Origin: Ignavibacteria bacterium
Lineage (GTDB): Bacteria; Bacteroidota; Ignavibacteria; Kapaibacteriales; UBA2268
Reading direction: 5' to 3'
DNA length: 64,000 bases
Assembly: GCA_026417135.1 (NCBI GenBank)
Contig: JAOADV010000004.1
Span: 64,814 to 128,813, forward strand
Below, piece after piece: positions 28,864 to 37,700 of the stretch (within the stretch, counting starts at the first letter, position 1; each line of letters opens with the position of its first letter). The notes under the pieces were generated by a model. The model was not told the origin of the DNA and searched no databases. It worked only from the letters and a program-made list of their open reading frames with translations. The translations under genes were made by a program, and so were the position numbers.

Positions 28864-30042
28864 GTGAAACCCAAAAGAATTTTGGTTCTAATGCCTCGAA
28901 TGCCTTATCCAACAATTGGAGGTGATAGACTTAAAAACTATCATTTACTAAAAATTTTGAAAAAGTATTTCGAAATTGATTTGATTGTCTTAGCAGACGA
29001 AAAATATTCGGAAGAATCAGAGGTATTTATTAAACAGCATTCTAGTTCTTATAAGATTTTTTACTTTCCAAAATACAGATTATACCTTAATGCATTAAAG
29101 TCTTTTTTAAATCGAAAACCGTTACAAAGCAATTTTTATTACTTTAAAAAGCTAAAAAGGTATGTTGATTCTAAAATTGACTCTGCGGATTTGATTATTA
29201 GCATAACTCAGCGAATGGCTGAATATGTTCTCGATTCTAATAAACCTTTACTTCTGGATATGGCAGATAGCAAAGGGCTGGTCTATTTGTATTCTTATTC
29301 TAAAACCTCTTCGTTGTTTTGGAAACTAATTTATGCAATAGAATACCCATTGCTTTTGAATTATGAAAAGAAGTTGATAGAAAAGTTCGATGCAACATTT
29401 CTTTTCAACAAAAAGGAGGTAGATTATTTCAACTCGCCGAAGGTTGTTTGGATACCACACGGTGTGAATCAAGATTTGCTTTATTACGAGAAGGTGGACC
29501 CGAAATACTCTAACTTTATCTCTTTTTTTGGGAAAATGGATTATCAGCCAAATATTGATGCAGTCAAATGGTTTATTCAAAATGTATTTCCACACTTGCC
29601 CGAAAGTATCAATTTTCAGATTATAGGAGCAAGGCCAAAGCCCGAGGTTGTGGATTTACAAAAGATTTCTAATCGGATAGTTGTTCGTGGTTATTTGGAC
29701 GACCCGTATGTTTATCTAAAATCGAGTTTTTGTTGTATTGCTCCAATGCAAACTGGAGGTGGCATTCAAAATAAAATTCTTGAATCGCTTGCTCTCGGAA
29801 CAATTGTCCTTACAACTTCACATTCTGCCTACCCGGTTGTTGGTACAAATTCTGATGTGTTGTTAATTGCCGACAAGGCAGAAGATTGGGTTCGGATTAT
29901 TAGAGATATTTACGAAAATCCTCAAAAATATGACTATATGAAAAACAAAGCGAGGGAATATATAAAAAATAATTTCACTTGGGAAATTTACGAAAAGAAA
30001 TATATCGAGACGATTGAGAATATATTTCGTTCCCGAAGCTGA
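28864..30042 (+). CDS. Glycosyltransferase family 4-like (group 1)
   Basis: 'ILVLMPRMPYPTIGGDRLKNYHLLKIL' N-terminus; 'CCIAPMQTGGGIQNKILESLALGTIVLTTSHSA' GT4 C-terminal motif; GTG start. Confidence 0.85.
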   Translation: MKPKRILVLMPRMPYPTIGGDRLKNYHLLKILKKYFEIDLIVLADEKYSEESEVFIKQHSSSYKIFYFPKYRLYLNALKSFLNRKPLQSNFYYFKKLKRYVDSKIDSADLIISITQRMAEYVLDSNKPLLLDMADSKGLVYLYSYSKTSSLFWKLIYAIEYPLLLNYEKKLIEKFDATFLFNKKEVDYFNSPKVVWIPHGVNQDLLYYEKVDPKYSNFISFFGKMDYQPNIDAVKWFIQNVFPHLPESINFQIIGARPKPEVVDLQKISNRIVVRGYLDDPYVYLKSSFCCIAPMQTGGGIQNKILESLALGTIVLTTSHSAYPVVGTNSDVLLIADKAEDWVRIIRDIYENPQKYDYMKNKAREYIKNNFTWEIYEKKYIETIENIFRSRS

Positions 30043-30051
30043 TTTCGTTCT

Positions 30052-31767
30052 TTATTCACTTTGACATTTCAGCTGGTCGTAATAATCGCTTGCTACTTTA
30101 TTTTTGGGGTTGATTTGTAAAACTTTTTTCCAGTATTTACAAGCATTTGGTAAATCTTTTTGAATTTGCGAGGATATTGCTAAATAAATCCAAGGGCTTT
30201 CTAATTTCGGTTCTATTTCGGACCAGAGCTTTGCATATCGGGTTAATTCTTTCGTGTCGCGTGTATCCAAAAGCAAATTACACAATTTACTATAAGCAAG
30301 ATTAAGAATTTTCTGATTACTTTCCGATGGGTTTTCAGAAGCAATTTTTATGGAAGTTATGTAATCGTCTTTTCCGAGCAGCTTTTTATCGGACGAAACA
30401 TATGCATCACCACGATATATATAGTTTAATGGATTAGATTGTTCAATACTAATTGCTTTTGTAAAGTATGAAATTGCAGAATCATAAAGATTCAAGTTTA
30501 GATAAGAATTGCCTAAGTAGAAAAAGACTTTTGGTAGAAGTGTGTCTTTGCAGAAGTCTAAGTATTTGTTATAAAAGTTTGTTGCATCGTTGTATCGTTT
30601 TGCAAAATAACTTAACATTCCTACCTGATATGCAAGAAGACATCGGTTTGGTTTGAGTTCGAGTAGTTCATTGTAAATTTTTAATGCTTGGGTGGTATCG
30701 CCAGTTTGCAGATAGGAACTTGCAAGTCGCTCGTAATCTTTATCTTCGAGAGTTTCGGATTTATTGTTTTTTAATTGATTATAAGTTGAAATAGATTCTT
30801 CGAAACGACGAGTATCGAAATAGCATCGAGCAAGTCTCAAGATTGCTTTAAATTTAACAGAATCTATTTCATTGGCTACTATTTGAAGGTGTGGAATAGC
30901 GGAATCGCATTTTGCTATTTCGACAAGGGATTGTGCTAAATACCATCGCCCAAGCGAGCCAGTTGAGCGTAACTGGACATATTGGTATAACGCTCGGGCA
31001 GCATCTTCGAACCGACGAGCAAGAAATAATATTTTACCTTGTTCGAACCAAGCTCTAAAGTTTTTAGGTTCTTTTTGCGAAACAATACTCCATTCTTTCA
31101 AAGAACGAGTAAATAGCTCGTTTGAAAGATTTTCGTCGGTTTCCCGATTAGCCAACCAATAATATGCAGTTGCAAGCTTGATTCTGGCGTCTGTCAACTC
31201 GGGATTAATGGCTAGTGCCTCTTCGTAATTCATTCTTGCAAGCTCGTAAACCTTTTGGGCAAAATATAAGTCGCCTAAGGCTACAAGTGGTTCAGCAGTT
31301 TTTGGATTTAAATCCCTAGCTTTTGCGATATGATATTCAGCTTGTTTTAATGAATCGGCACGCAAATAAACATAACCAAGCTCTAAATTTGCTTCCCAAG
31401 AATTTATGTTCTTCTTTAAATAATCTTTTAATATTTTTATACCTCTGTCTGTATTTTTCGAATATGAGTATGCCCTTGCAAGTTTGGTTACTATTTCGAC
31501 TCTGTCGTTTCGTATATTATAAGCATTTTCATACATAATTCTTGCTGAATCATATTTTTCAAACTCGAAATAAACGTCTCCAAACGCAAGGTAAATAAAT
31601 TCGTCTTTATATTTTTCTTTAACCAAAATTGGTAGGAGCTCGTATGCTTCTTGGTATGCGTTATTTCGATAATACTGACGGAATAGTGTTAAGTTGTCTT
31701 GGGCAAATGCATTGATTACTGTAATCTTAAACAATATTAACAAAATGAAAAATTTTGTTTCTTTCAT
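30052..31767 (-). CDS. TPR-repeat protein with signal peptide
   Basis: Many TPR motifs ('AVALGDLYFAQKVYELARMNYEEALAINPE'-type). Start corrected from 31782 to 31767 (MKETKFFILLILF), 1 nt downstream of the previous stop. Confidence 0.8.
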   Translation of the reverse strand: MKETKFFILLILFKITVINAFAQDNLTLFRQYYRNNAYQEAYELLPILVKEKYKDEFIYLAFGDVYFEFEKYDSARIMYENAYNIRNDRVEIVTKLARAYSYSKNTDRGIKILKDYLKKNINSWEANLELGYVYLRADSLKQAEYHIAKARDLNPKTAEPLVALGDLYFAQKVYELARMNYEEALAINPELTDARIKLATAYYWLANRETDENLSNELFTRSLKEWSIVSQKEPKNFRAWFEQGKILFLARRFEDAARALYQYVQLRSTGSLGRWYLAQSLVEIAKCDSAIPHLQIVANEIDSVKFKAILRLARCYFDTRRFEESISTYNQLKNNKSETLEDKDYERLASSYLQTGDTTQALKIYNELLELKPNRCLLAYQVGMLSYFAKRYNDATNFYNKYLDFCKDTLLPKVFFYLGNSYLNLNLYDSAISYFTKAISIEQSNPLNYIYRGDAYVSSDKKLLGKDDYITSIKIASENPSESNQKILNLAYSKLCNLLLDTRDTKELTRYAKLWSEIEPKLESPWIYLAISSQIQKDLPNACKYWKKVLQINPKNKVASDYYDQLKCQSE

Positions 31768-31768
31768 A

Positions 31769-32680
31769 TTATTCATCCTCAATTAGTCTAAATTCGGCAT
31801 TTGAAGGTACAATCCCCCTTTCGAAAAAGAATTTCTGAGGAAACCCCGGTTTGAATAAGTATCTTGCAAATGTCATTGAATTATCGTTCAATTTATCTAA
31901 AACGAAAATATAGTGTTCGACAATGTAAGGGTAGTTGGCTCTTAAAATATTAGGTTGGTTAACATTGTGCGGGAAAATATAGCGGTTTGCTGAATCAATG
32001 AAACTAATTGGTAAAGCTCTTAAATCTGGTTCAGCAAAAAGATGCGATAAATATCCAATTCCAATAGAATTAGAGTTAGCTTTTACAAAATTTTTGACGC
32101 TATCGTGCGAGTTGAATATCTTCAAAGGACGTGTTAGATTCCGGTTTTTTAAAACAAGATTGTTTAAATTCACTAATTCAGAAGATAAAATGCCATTAGA
32201 AACAAAGATAGGTTCAGCAACCAGTTTGGGGTAAATCTTTTTCAAAGAGTATTTCCGGTCGGTAAGAAAGTTTCTAATCTGTTCATCAGTGAGGGTATCC
32301 AAAGGGGAATCTTTATTAACATAGAAAACGAGGGCATCGCGTGCAAGAGTTAATCGAGTGTGTGGAGAGACGTTGAATGCTTTCATCAACGAATCTTCAT
32401 AACGAGTATAGCTTCGGGCAATAACTATTGCATCAGCTTCGCGTGAAAGTAGTTTAGCCATAGCATCCCAAGCGCTAGTCTTTCGGAAAGTTAGTTTAAC
32501 GAGACTTCCAATAGTATCATAATGTTGGACACAAGGGAAGATTATTGGATAAATCGATTCGTCGCAGTAAACGGTTATTTTCCGAGAATCTGGTTTTTGG
32601 ACCTCTTCTTTTCCACAAGAAGCAAGGACAAGGATAAAAATTAATTGAACTATTTTAATAGCTAAACTATTCGGCTTCAT
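31769..32680 (-). CDS. PstS-like phosphate/anion-binding lipoprotein, orphan (no pstCAB nearby)
   Basis: Lipobox 'LASCGKE'; PstS-like fold signatures 'KITVYCDESIYPIIFPCVQHY', 'DALVFYVNKDSPLDTLTDEQIRNFLT'. Confidence 0.72.
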   Translation of the reverse strand: MKPNSLAIKIVQLIFILVLASCGKEEVQKPDSRKITVYCDESIYPIIFPCVQHYDTIGSLVKLTFRKTSAWDAMAKLLSREADAIVIARSYTRYEDSLMKAFNVSPHTRLTLARDALVFYVNKDSPLDTLTDEQIRNFLTDRKYSLKKIYPKLVAEPIFVSNGILSSELVNLNNLVLKNRNLTRPLKIFNSHDSVKNFVKANSNSIGIGYLSHLFAEPDLRALPISFIDSANRYIFPHNVNQPNILRANYPYIVEHYIFVLDKLNDNSMTFARYLFKPGFPQKFFFERGIVPSNAEFRLIEDE

Positions 32681-32864
32681 CTTCTTTCAATTGTTTTAGA
32701 GCTTTTCGATAAGAATAAATTCTATATACGCCCCATATAATTAATAAAACGCCGATAATTTGAAGTTCTAATTTATAAGGATGTTCATACAAAAACTTAC
32801 CCGAAGCCAAGAAAACACCAAATAAAATCGTTAATAATCTAACAGCATAGTTGAAAATTATCAC
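32667..32864 (-). CDS. 65-aa small membrane protein with two predicted TM segments
   Basis: 'AVRLLTILFGVFLASGKFLYEHPYKLELQIIGVLLIIWGVYRIYSYRK'; overlaps the PstS-like start by 14 nt. Confidence 0.65.
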   Translation of the reverse strand: MIIFNYAVRLLTILFGVFLASGKFLYEHPYKLELQIIGVLLIIWGVYRIYSYRKALKQLKEDEAE

Positions 32865-32965
32865 ATTGGTTCATTTATTTAATTGGAATATTATAGTTTT
32901 TTTGCTTAACAAAGCTCGTATTGGGAATGCGATTTCAGAATAATATTTTGGCACGATTTCGCAAA

Positions 32966-33748
32966 CTAACGTAATTTGAATCTAATCGGAATACTGACCC
33001 AACACATAATTGGTTGTCCATTTTGTATTGCGGGCGTGAAAGTTGACTTCATTACAGCGTCGATAGCTGCTTGATTTAACATTTCTGAATCGGAGGATTG
33101 TACAACCGCTCTCTTTGGTTTTCCAGTTTTATCGACAAGGACACGGATGACAACTTGACCTTCGATACCAGCCTTTCGGGCCATTTCTGGATAAACAATT
33201 CGCTTTTGTAAGTCAACTAAATCAATATAGGGTTCTTTTTCGAAGGGGATAAACTCGTCGATATCGGGTTCTTCTTCCTTTTGCTTGATTTCAACTTTTT
33301 GGTCGAGATTGAAGTCAGTTGGTAGCTGACTTATGTCTATTTCGAGACCTTTTTCTCGGGCAAGCGATTCACTCAATTTTTCAAATGTAGCGAATTCCTT
33401 TAAATCTTCTTTAATTTCGGCATCGGGGATTGGGACTGGTGTCCCTGCTTTTGCTGCTGTTGCTATTTCCAAAATTTGTTGAGTAGGAGGTGGTGGGGGA
33501 ACTTCTTCTTCTTGCTCTTCCAGCTCTTGGATTGGTCCTCCTAAAGTGATTTTACTTATTGGGGCACGATGTAACGAAGCTCGGGCACTTTCGGAGGCTT
33601 TAGCATAAATTAAATATGCAAGAAGTAGGACGATTACAAAGCTAATCGTTATAATAAAACCGCGAAATGTGTTTCGGGGAATAATGATTTTTAATTCTGC
33701 AAACCCATAGGTGGGCTGGGGTGGTATTTCGATAATGTGGTTGTTCAT
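32966..33748 (-). CDS. TonB-family energy transducer
   Basis: Single N-terminal TM, Pro/Glu-rich linker, C-terminal 'RIVYPEMARKAGIEGQVVIRVLVDKTGKPKRAVVQSSDSEMLNQAAIDAVMKSTFTPA'. Confidence 0.92.
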   Translation of the reverse strand: MNNHIIEIPPQPTYGFAELKIIIPRNTFRGFIITISFVIVLLLAYLIYAKASESARASLHRAPISKITLGGPIQELEEQEEEVPPPPPTQQILEIATAAKAGTPVPIPDAEIKEDLKEFATFEKLSESLAREKGLEIDISQLPTDFNLDQKVEIKQKEEEPDIDEFIPFEKEPYIDLVDLQKRIVYPEMARKAGIEGQVVIRVLVDKTGKPKRAVVQSSDSEMLNQAAIDAVMKSTFTPAIQNGQPIMCWVSIPIRFKLR

Positions 33749-34335
33749 TTTCCCTCCCCTTCTATAAATTTTAAATCCTCTTCTAATAAAGGAGCAATAG
33801 TAAATTTTCGTTGCCTTTTGACTGGTTCGCCTTTTTCATCTAATTCTTTCGAGATGGCTTCGGTAATTGGAATTTCGGCCAGGTTTAGTTCGTCGAGTAT
33901 TTCGATTACTTTGGAATAACTTGCTTCGGGCGAAATTTTCAAGACGGTGATTAATTTATTTTTTACCATCGGTTCCAAGTTTTTTTCGTAGGCAAGCATT
34001 CGTAATTTTGAAATTGGTATTTCTTGTGGTTTATTGGTTTCGTCCGCAATACCTTTGAACCAATACAATTTGTTTTCTTTTGTGAGAAGAAGAGTTAAAA
34101 GTTCGGAGGCGCGAACCTCGACCTTTGCATACATTTCTGGGGGAATACGCATCTCCATTATTTGTGGTTTAAGCATTGTCGTAGTGAACATAAAGAAAGT
34201 TAACAGCAAAAAAGTAATATCGACCAAAGGGGTTAAGTCAATTCTAAAACCGATTCTTCTTTTCTTTTTCCTGCGAACAATTTTTCCACGCTTAGTCCTT
34301 TCTGGTATCGCTAAACCTTCGCCACCTCCTGCCAT
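33745..34335 (-). CDS. ExbD/TolR biopolymer transporter
   Basis: 'GFRIDLTPLVDITFLLLTFFMFTTTM' TM helix motif. Confidence 0.9.
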   Translation of the reverse strand: MAGGGEGLAIPERTKRGKIVRRKKKRRIGFRIDLTPLVDITFLLLTFFMFTTTMLKPQIMEMRIPPEMYAKVEVRASELLTLLLTKENKLYWFKGIADETNKPQEIPISKLRMLAYEKNLEPMVKNKLITVLKISPEASYSKVIEILDELNLAEIPITEAISKELDEKGEPVKRQRKFTIAPLLEEDLKFIEGEGK

Positions 34336-34395
34336 ATTTTCTCCATTTTATTAACTATATATTAAGACGTATGAATTATCAAAAAAGTTACATTT

Positions 34396-34929
34396 TTATG
34401 GTTTCTTTTCTAACTCGGGCCTTTTCTTTTCTGTTACGAAATTAAATACGAAAGCTCGGTTTCTTCGCAAGATATTCATAGCATCTTCAACCCACTTGAA
34501 ACGAATTCTTTGGTCAGCATCGATTGCAAACCTTGTTGAACTCCGAACAGATAAAGTGGCTCGAATTAGCTTCCCGAGTATTACTGTGTCGACTTTTATT
34601 AATGCTTTCGATTGGAATTCTAAGGGTATTTCTGGCACCAGTTGATAAATCAATGGGACATCCCGAACATTAGTGATTCCGTAATAATAAGCTGTATCGG
34701 TTGGATTTTTGTCGTCGATCGCTATATTAATAATTGCTAAATCGCGTTCGGGTAGCGAGGTGGTGTCGGGGGTGGCTATCGGTCTCCTTATCGTAAATTG
34801 CTTTTCTGCTTCGGCTTCGGATTTGAATTTCGTCGTAAACATTAAAAAAGTCAACAACAAGAATGTAATATCGACCAAAGGTGTTAAATCTATAACGAAG
34901 CCCATTCTTTTCTTTTTTATCTTAGGCAC
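34396..34929 (-). CDS. ExbD/TolR biopolymer transporter, second copy
   Basis: 'GFVIDLTPLVDITFLLLTFLMFTTKF'. Confidence 0.9.
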   Translation of the reverse strand: MPKIKKKRMGFVIDLTPLVDITFLLLTFLMFTTKFKSEAEAEKQFTIRRPIATPDTTSLPERDLAIINIAIDDKNPTDTAYYYGITNVRDVPLIYQLVPEIPLEFQSKALIKVDTVILGKLIRATLSVRSSTRFAIDADQRIRFKWVEDAMNILRRNRAFVFNFVTEKKRPELEKKP

Positions 34930-34944
34930 TTGCCCCTCCTCCGA

Positions 34945-35727
34945 CTATTGTTTTAATCGCAAAGTTAGCAATTGTGTAACATTTAAGATTGCTTCGTCGA
35001 TAGTATAAAGATAATCGTCAACTTTGGTAGTGAAATAATTGAAGAAAATAATAGAGATAATAGCACCAGCAAGTCCACCAGCAGTATTATACAAAGCTTC
35101 GGATATTCCAATAGCCAATTGAGTTGCATCGACCGTTCCAGTTTCGCCGAACGCTGCGAATGCCCTTATCATACCGATAGTAGTTCCAAGCAAACCAAAT
35201 AGAACGGATACCGAAGCAATTGTCGATAATATTACAAGATTTTTTTCCAAAAGTGGAGTTTCTAAGTTTGTAGCCTCGTCGATTGCTCTTTGAACTTCTG
35301 TCATCTTTCGGTCGATTGTTAAAGTTGTATCTTTTTCGATTTGTTTAAATCTTTCAATCGATGCCCTTAGTATGTTGGCTAAACTTCCTCTTTGTTTCTC
35401 ACATTCCTTCAAGGCGTCGTCCAACTCTCCTTTCGCAATTAAATCTAAAACTGTTTTTACAAAAGTTCCAATATCACCTCGTCCCTTTGCTTTGTTAATC
35501 GAAAAGGTTCTTTCGAAAACAAATGTTACAGAAATTATTAGAAGAGCAATTAAGATTCCAACAATCGGTCCACCTGTGTAAATTGCCCCGACTATGCTTC
35601 CCTTTTTCGGTTTTTTCTTAGTTGCTGGGTCCTCGAAATTATTTGGGTCTCCGAAGTAAAACAAGTAGATTGAAAAAGCAATAATTAATGAAAGTGTGAT
35701 TACGATTACATTAAACGCTTTCTTCAT
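34945..35727 (-). CDS. MotA/TolQ/ExbB proton channel family protein
   Basis: 'LSTIASVSVLFGLLGTTIGMIRAFAAFGETGTVDATQLAIGISEALYNTAGGLAGAIISII'. Confidence 0.93.
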   Translation of the reverse strand: MKKAFNVIVITLSLIIAFSIYLFYFGDPNNFEDPATKKKPKKGSIVGAIYTGGPIVGILIALLIISVTFVFERTFSINKAKGRGDIGTFVKTVLDLIAKGELDDALKECEKQRGSLANILRASIERFKQIEKDTTLTIDRKMTEVQRAIDEATNLETPLLEKNLVILSTIASVSVLFGLLGTTIGMIRAFAAFGETGTVDATQLAIGISEALYNTAGGLAGAIISIIFFNYFTTKVDDYLYTIDEAILNVTQLLTLRLKQ

Positions 35728-36403
35728 AAATTAACCTTTCCCTTATTTGTAATATTATTTAAACATTAGCAGACATTTTATTTCGAAAAATAAAATTATT
35801 AAAAGCAAAAAAATTTGACGAATAAAAAAATTTATTGATTTATTTTTTTCAAAAGAATTGTGGAAAAGACCAAATTTATTTCGATAGCCAAATTCGCTGT
35901 ATTTTGGTTTAGTTATCATAAATTGTTATTTCTTAGTTGTACAGAAATTTGTGTCCTTGAATTGCAAATATTGAATTCCGACACAAAAAATATGGCGAAA
36001 AACGAAATCAACTTATTTTAAAAGATTTAAAAAACAAACTACAAAAATAACTTTTTTTGATGAAAATAAATTCTCGAATGTATTAATTTTAAATTAACAA
36101 ATATTTTGTTCTATCCAGAAAACCCCTTTCTTGGTAAAAAGTAAATGGAAGCGTTTTAAGTTGTTATGTTTTTGTATTGTCGTCGGCTTTTTGATTGATG
36201 GATTACAAGATAAGTTCGATCTTCAAAGTAATTTAGTTCATTCTCGAAACAAAATTCAACATTTTCGAAAGACTTGATGTATAGATGGGAGTAATTTAAA
36301 GATTTTCGACAGATACTTATGCTTGAAAAAATTTTAAGTGATAAGATTTCTTAATCGGTAATTAGGAAAATTCACTTGGCGGTTTTATTTGACCGACTTT
36401 TAG

Positions 36404-36411
36404 TAAATTTG
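36404..36411 (+). promoter_or_regulatory. -7 element TAAATTTG upstream of the aspartokinase-like gene
   Basis: TAnnTTTG match 17 nt before the start. Confidence 0.45.
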
Positions 36412-36428
36412 ATAGTTTAATTTGACTT

Positions 36429-37700
36429 ATGCAAATGAAGTTCGAAGTTATGAAAATTGGGGGGGCGGTGTTAAGCTCTCCTCAAAATTTAATTTATCTT
36501 AAAAAGATAGTCGAAAATTATTGCAAAGGAGAAACAATTTTTGTTTTTTCGGCTTTCAAAAATTTTTCAAGGATTTTGAAAGAATTGGCTTTTTTTGCAA
36601 GAAATGGTCGTTACGAAGAGTCGAAAAGCCAGTTAAACCAGTTTCGCGACCAAATTCTTAATTATGCCAAGGTTTTGGAAAATGACTCTCGATTGTTTTA
36701 TGATACTATTACAGAAATAGATTCGCTTTTGGGTGAAATTGAAAAAATAATATTTGGAATTGCTGTAACAAAAGAACTTAGCAAACGAACTCTCGACCGA
36801 TTTCTTGCTTTTGGCGAGATAATCACGATGTCGATTTTGGAAGCATACTTGAAAAGTCAAAATGTTGATTCAGTCTTTGTAGATTCCCGGAAGGTTATTT
36901 TTACAAATGATGATTTTGGCAAAGCAAAACCTTTAGAAGATTTGACTAAGGAAGCGGTCCAAGAATTCATTTTACCTTTATTTCATAGATTCAAAATTGT
37001 CTTTGTTCCAGGTTTTGTCGGGAGAACACGTGATGGATTGACAACCACAATGGGTTTCGAAAGTTCAAATCTTACTGCTTTGTTGATAGCCTCGATAGTC
37101 GAGGCAAAAAAAGTATGTTTTTGGACAGATGTTGAAGGAATAAGAACTTCGGACCCCAAAATTGTAGAAAATACCAACTATATTCCCGAACTTTCGTTCG
37201 ACTTTGCTAAAGTTCTTGCTTTGAATGGATTGAAACTCATTCATCCTTATATGATAGAGTTTTTTTATAAAAATCCCGAAGTAGAATATGTTTATAGGAG
37301 TGCCTTCGCACCAGATATTGAAATGACCCGTATTGTTCCCGAAACGAAGAGACTTCCAAAAATTATCTTAATTTCTGAACCAACAAGTTTTATTTTCGAA
37401 AATGTAGGTTTAGACGAGAATTCTTCGAACGATTTTTTGTTGGCACAAAGAAGCCCCGATTGTTCGTTTGTTATCAATTCTAAATTTATTTCTGACAATT
37501 CTTCGAAAAGTACGAAATTAGTTTCGTTGCTAACCTTCTTAAACTTTGAAACAAAGGAAGTCGTTATGGCGTTAAGCGAAATAGTCGATAAAATACTTTT
37601 TTTTCAAGTTGTGAATGTCAATAATGTAGCGAAGCTTATACTCGAAGAAGGGTTCGTTGTTGAAGTAGCAAACAAGGTTCACAACATCCTTATTGATTAA
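36429..37700 (+). CDS. Divergent aspartate kinase-family protein
   Basis: 'MKIGGAVLSS' in place of the usual KFGGTS; 'GFVGRTRDGLTTTMGFESSNLTALLIASIVEAKKVCFWTDVEGIRTSDPKIV' retains the amino-acid kinase/aspartokinase layout. Confidence 0.75.
   Translation: MQMKFEVMKIGGAVLSSPQNLIYLKKIVENYCKGETIFVFSAFKNFSRILKELAFFARNGRYEESKSQLNQFRDQILNYAKVLENDSRLFYDTITEIDSLLGEIEKIIFGIAVTKELSKRTLDRFLAFGEIITMSILEAYLKSQNVDSVFVDSRKVIFTNDDFGKAKPLEDLTKEAVQEFILPLFHRFKIVFVPGFVGRTRDGLTTTMGFESSNLTALLIASIVEAKKVCFWTDVEGIRTSDPKIVENTNYIPELSFDFAKVLALNGLKLIHPYMIEFFYKNPEVEYVYRSAFAPDIEMTRIVPETKRLPKIILISEPTSFIFENVGLDENSSNDFLLAQRSPDCSFVINSKFISDNSSKSTKLVSLLTFLNFETKEVVMALSEIVDKILFFQVVNVNNVAKLILEEGFVVEVANKVHNILID

Follow-up and report, generated by a model that had tools for sequence, protein, structure and literature searches.

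The window analysed here is a 64,000-nucleotide stretch of contig JAOADV010000004.1 (positions 64,814 to 128,813 of the forward strand) from an Ignavibacteria bacterium (assembly GCA_026417135.1). Its minus strand carries, at window positions 30052-35727, a run of seven genes encoding ExbB, two different ExbD proteins, TonB, a miniprotein with two transmembrane (TM) segments, a lipoprotein with the fold of the phosphate-binding protein PstS, and a tetratricopeptide repeat (TPR) protein. The reading that we favour, with somewhat better than even confidence, is that this operon combines a housekeeping Ton motor with a dedicated accessory module, whose proteins associate with the Ton complex and aid TonB. 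What is new here is the assignment of the operon as the housekeeping Ton motor, the loss of the phosphate site in the PstS-like protein, and the separability of the two-TM/PstS/TPR module.

The case for a housekeeping role begins with a count of motors and receptors. Three proteins of the MotA/ExbB family are encoded in the window genome, and the operon ExbB (260 aa; 34945..35727; Pfam MotA_ExbB, 96.5 bits) is the only one outside flagellar-type loci, the flagellar-type neighbours of the other two having been recognised by eye from sequence and without a profile search. The genome has two ExbD proteins in total, paralogue 1 (177 aa; 34396..34929; Pfam ExbD, 45.8 bits) and paralogue 2 (196 aa; 33745..34335; 58.8 bits), both of which lie inside the operon, and the same holds for 8 other genomes. 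For four relatives (G024, G025, G029 and G033), the operon ExbB is the sole MotA/ExbB-family protein, and these genomes encode 18, 17, 47 and 16 plugs, respectively. The window genome itself encodes 15 Plug domains of TonB-dependent receptors. As the only ExbB/ExbD motor found in such a genome, by a MotA/ExbB-family search that a GldLM-type motor would escape, the operon should be the ordinary Ton energiser; as usual for housekeeping Ton operons, it contains no receptor gene. A first-pass annotation of the stretch had proposed a proton-driven envelope machine. A special-purpose machine of this kind, separate from the uptake of nutrients, was rejected on the strength of this count, which turned up no second ExbB/ExbD system in the genome.

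The roles of ExbB, ExbD and TonB follow from their families, and the MotA_ExbB, TonB_C and both ExbD matches exceed the Pfam gathering scores. The residues expected of a working motor are intact as well. In a phylum-wide alignment, the ExbB pore threonines T182 (in GLLGTT) and T215 (in NTA) are invariant, and the TM aspartates Asp20 of ExbD1 and Asp39 of ExbD2 are kept in at least 95% of 45 and 41 aligned sequences, respectively. TonB (260 aa; 32966..33748; TonB_C, 82.4 bits) has an N-terminal YGxxELK motif followed by one TM segment and the TonB_C domain, and a YGA-ELK/LR motif is present in most homologues across the phylum. The ExbB and two ExbD proteins would form a proton-driven inner-membrane motor, probably with five ExbB subunits enclosing one ExbD1 and one ExbD2, and TonB would transmit its force to the receptors of the genome. 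The operon resembles other Ton systems in its ExbB, ExbD and TonB, its conserved motor residues and the many TonB-dependent receptors of its genome, but differs from them in its two ExbD paralogues, its three extra co-encoded proteins and its TonB TM segment. The TM histidine that matters in E. coli TonB is missing from the window protein and many homologues, while it is present in L091, L093 and L095. A second, weaker TonB_C protein is encoded outside the window, on contig C4 of the same genome (50367-50543), in an open frame of 260 aa unlinked to the operon; similar proteins occur within the genus and in three further relatives.

The PstS-like lipoprotein (303 aa; 31769..32680; lipobox Cys22) retains the PstS fold and, judged by its ligand loops, has lost the phosphate site. 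The fold is supported by a PBP_like_2 domain (30.8 bits, cut-off 27) and by an AlphaFold2 model (mean predicted local distance difference test, pLDDT, 90.5), and it is of the type II periplasmic binding kind (Foldseek 4omb, 4gd5). The best Foldseek matches of the model are phosphate-binding proteins, with a TM-score of up to 0.86 by target length. A lipobox-like cysteine occurs in 58 of 59 PstS-like proteins. In true PstS proteins, three loops (GSDT, GGGSGTG and SRExNSGT) bind the phosphate, and ten residues were scored across them. All ten are present in each of eight canonical PstS proteins encoded by related genomes (eight of ten candidates; L141 and L149 were left out because the profile did not recover them), whereas the 69 operon-type proteins keep between 0 and 3 of the ten, and the ligand arginine is missing from every one. 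The window protein has no PstS match in NCBIfam, and with TIGR02136, whose cut-off is 206.6 bits, three of its homologues reach 44.7, 92.4 and 104.4 bits. No partner permease was found either: pstC (TIGR02138) has no match in the window genome (98% complete) and none over the cut-off in its genus, where each genome has a single PBP_like_2 protein, namely that of the operon. By comparison, true PstS adjoins pstC in most relatives that possess one. With the ligand loops gone and no recognisable pstC in the genus, a function other than phosphate import, as the first-pass annotation had suggested, is supported. In the favoured reading, the fold would have been turned over from phosphate to a different partner, either a protein or another ligand, and many lipoproteins of the operon type are likely misannotated as parts of a "phosphate ABC transporter", since they should not bind phosphate. 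In L131 and L136 (genomes G044 and G114), the PstS-like proteins occur as tandem pairs, without an adjoining TPR gene.

Of the other two members of the module, the two-TM miniprotein (65 aa; 32667..32864; GTG start) carries the pattern NYxxR...FGxYR, and a simple hydropathy scan finds two hydrophobic segments in it and in 49 of 55 homologues. The TPR protein (576 aa; longest frame 30052..31782) has a signal peptide and matches Pfam TPR families, and its AlphaFold2 model (pLDDT 94.3) is an unbroken helical solenoid of about 15 units, for which Foldseek returns generic TPR superhelices only. Within the order, its residues 160-320 are the best conserved part, which suggests a partner surface there; across the phylum this pattern is not clear. 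All three members of the module would associate with the Ton complex, the TPR solenoid as a periplasmic scaffold, and would jointly help TonB to reach, select or re-engage its receptors. No curated family naming the accessory proteins was matched, and no paper treating the seven genes as a unit was found in the openly licensed literature, in line with the earlier suspicion that the system is functionally uncharacterised.

The linkage of module and motor had been predicted to recur in other Bacteroidota, and it does. Counting the window genome, a PstS-like orthologue was found in 39 of 40 relatives, many of them metagenome-assembled genomes (MAGs); the fortieth, G013, has no PstS-like match and is an assembly of 650 contigs. 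Among the 39 order-level loci, the complete set of seven occurs in order in 26, contig ends truncate another 6, and in the remaining 7 the module lies apart from the motor genes. The two-TM gene adjoins the PstS-like gene in all 39 and 38 of the loci hold the TPR gene, and this recurrence argues that the arrangement is not due to chance. Named loci that match the PstS-like protein at 71-73% identity come from MAGs labelled Candidatus Kapaibacterium/Kapabacteria, Ignavibacteria or Bacteroidetes/Chlorobi group, and on this basis the window is assigned to a Kapabacteria genome within Bacteroidota. A record titled as a Desulfobulbaceae MAG (L069) contains a full Kapabacteria-type operon and is probably mislabelled or a mixed bin. 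Beyond the order, the gene order from exbB to the TPR gene is kept in 17 of 20 class- and phylum-level loci, although these were picked from the strongest matches and are not a random sample; three of the 17 (families f51) have no two-TM gene, and the two-TM match is weak in a few of the 20.

A sample of 109 genomes, drawn evenly across the phylum, gives the same picture. A PstS-like protein (E<1e-50) was found in 40 of them, and all 40 have the operon-type ExbB (E<1e-80), with the two genes lying within roughly 5 kb of each other in about 30 of the 40 by hand count from coordinates. The co-occurrence gives a Fisher p of 4e-14, a value that overstates the strength of the association because shared ancestry is ignored and the thresholds were set after a bimodal list had been seen. 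Additional TonB paralogues occur inside the operon in eight loci (L022, L027, L030, L032, L033, L039, L040 and L045), L032 having five TonB genes, and in L030 and L032 a TonB gene is lodged between the two-TM and PstS-like genes.

Several observations weigh against a dedicated tie between module and motor. The seven separated loci keep the two-TM and PstS-like genes, and six of them the TPR gene, with no motor genes nearby, while an intact exbB-exbD-exbD-tonB block lies elsewhere in six of the seven genomes (G011 being left out). The module is thus a separable unit that stays together even when exbBDD-tonB sits elsewhere. Family f29 (22 sampled genomes) is the only one with an operon-type ExbB and no clear PstS-like protein, and in two of three of its genomes that were inspected the exbBDD-tonB block has no adjoining PstS/TPR pair, so not every genome with this motor needs the module. 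A clear PstS-like protein, in other words, implies an operon-type ExbB in the sample, but not the reverse. Finally, no gene fusions between components were found among the loci.

Precedents from other Ton systems help to weigh these points. The TonB2 operon of Riemerella anatipestifer, exbB2-exbD21-exbD22-tonB2, appears orthologous by gene order and annotation, and its tonB2 is required for most hemin and iron uptake, yet the four-gene block by itself failed to power transport in E. coli; the genes downstream were outside the scope of that study (PMC4446302). The need for accessory proteins might explain this failure. In Vibrio, the TonB2 system works with TtpB2, TtpC2 and TtpD2, and in V. vulnificus its function needs TtpD2, a TPR protein encoded, as here, by the last gene of the operon (PMC6957404). 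The TtpC-type second ExbB and the DUF3450 protein TtpB have no counterpart among the seven proteins, and the Vibrio operon is described without a PstS-fold lipoprotein. The accessory module is nevertheless best read as analogous to the Ttp proteins. From gene order, co-occurrence, the inserted TonB paralogues and these two precedents, we infer that the PstS-like and TPR proteins likely act with the motor, through physical association with TonB or ExbD and with an effect on transport.

Bacteroidota depend on TonB to take up glycans, heme and B12, and how a few motors serve so many receptors is a general problem, for which a widely conserved accessory module, present even where its motor is the only ExbB/ExbD motor, offers concrete candidates for missing components. 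In B. fragilis, TonB3 is reported, by a study cited in PMC11658791, to serve starch, N-glycans, heme and B12. A bolder and distinctly tentative extension, which we put at less than an even chance, is that, in a large part of the Bacteroidota, a former phosphate-binding fold regulates or couples the main Ton motor, and that with the TPR and two-TM proteins it gates TonB or directs it to receptors as a control layer absent from the Ton system of E. coli.

Of the competing explanations, the one that survives best, though it is improbable, makes the lipoprotein a sensor or gate that binds a non-phosphate ligand and switches the Ton motor by nutrient or energy state through the TPR and two-TM proteins. 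It would suit a well-folded binding protein whose loop 1 has a conserved acidic pair in place of the phosphate loop (D40, replacing Ser, in 63 of 69; E41 in 43 of 69), and a two-TM membrane partner is encoded beside this protein throughout the order. The ligand, however, is putative, and no signalling domain was found by Pfam or NCBIfam in the two-TM or TPR protein. A little less probable still is that the sole motor doubles as a Tol-Pal substitute and stabilises the outer membrane, with the lipoprotein and the TPR protein standing in for TolB/Pal and CpoB. The operon is laid out like tolQRA-tolB-pal-cpoB, with the genes for motor, axle and transducer ahead of those for envelope proteins, and a TPR protein last; the NCBIfam TolQ model (102.3 bits, cut-off 221) outscores the ExbB model (61 bits) on the operon ExbB, both under their cut-offs; and tol-pal loci were not found in Bacteroidetes by others (PMC12204202). 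On the other hand, the transducer has a TonB_C instead of a TolA domain, the curated TolR model reaches only 37.1 bits (cut-off 127.3) among the operon proteins, and no TolA, TolB propeller or OmpA-like Pal domain was found by Pfam or NCBIfam in the seven, although no genome-wide search for Pal or TolB was made.

It is also conceivable, at perhaps the longest odds that still merit discussion, that the three downstream genes merely share a transcript and do an unrelated envelope job, as the 7 of 39 loci with the module away from the motor might suggest; this sits poorly with the 40 of 40 co-occurrence with ExbB, the same order in many families and the TonB paralogues inserted within the module. 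Phosphate import, with the lipoprotein as a genuine PstS that hands phosphate to an ABC transporter or takes part in its TonB-driven uptake, is rejected as extremely improbable in spite of the PstS-type fold and weak PstS-family scores, the ligand loops being replaced and pstC missing.

The layout of the locus agrees with that originally described, both the seven frames and their families having been confirmed. The end of the two-TM frame overlaps the PstS-like start by 14 nt (32667-32680), and the annotated 1-nt gap between the PstS-like stop and the TPR start holds if the latter is the ATG at 31767, the likely start, rather than the TTG at 31782 that opens the longest frame. A search of positions 29900 to 36500 found no terminator-like site on the minus strand, and scanning for promoters yielded no excess of sites over shuffled sequence. 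Downstream, a glycosyltransferase-like gene on the plus strand (28864-30042) converges on the run across a 9 nt gap, and upstream an aspartokinase-like gene, also on the plus strand (36429), diverges from it, so that the seven genes stand as an isolated unit.

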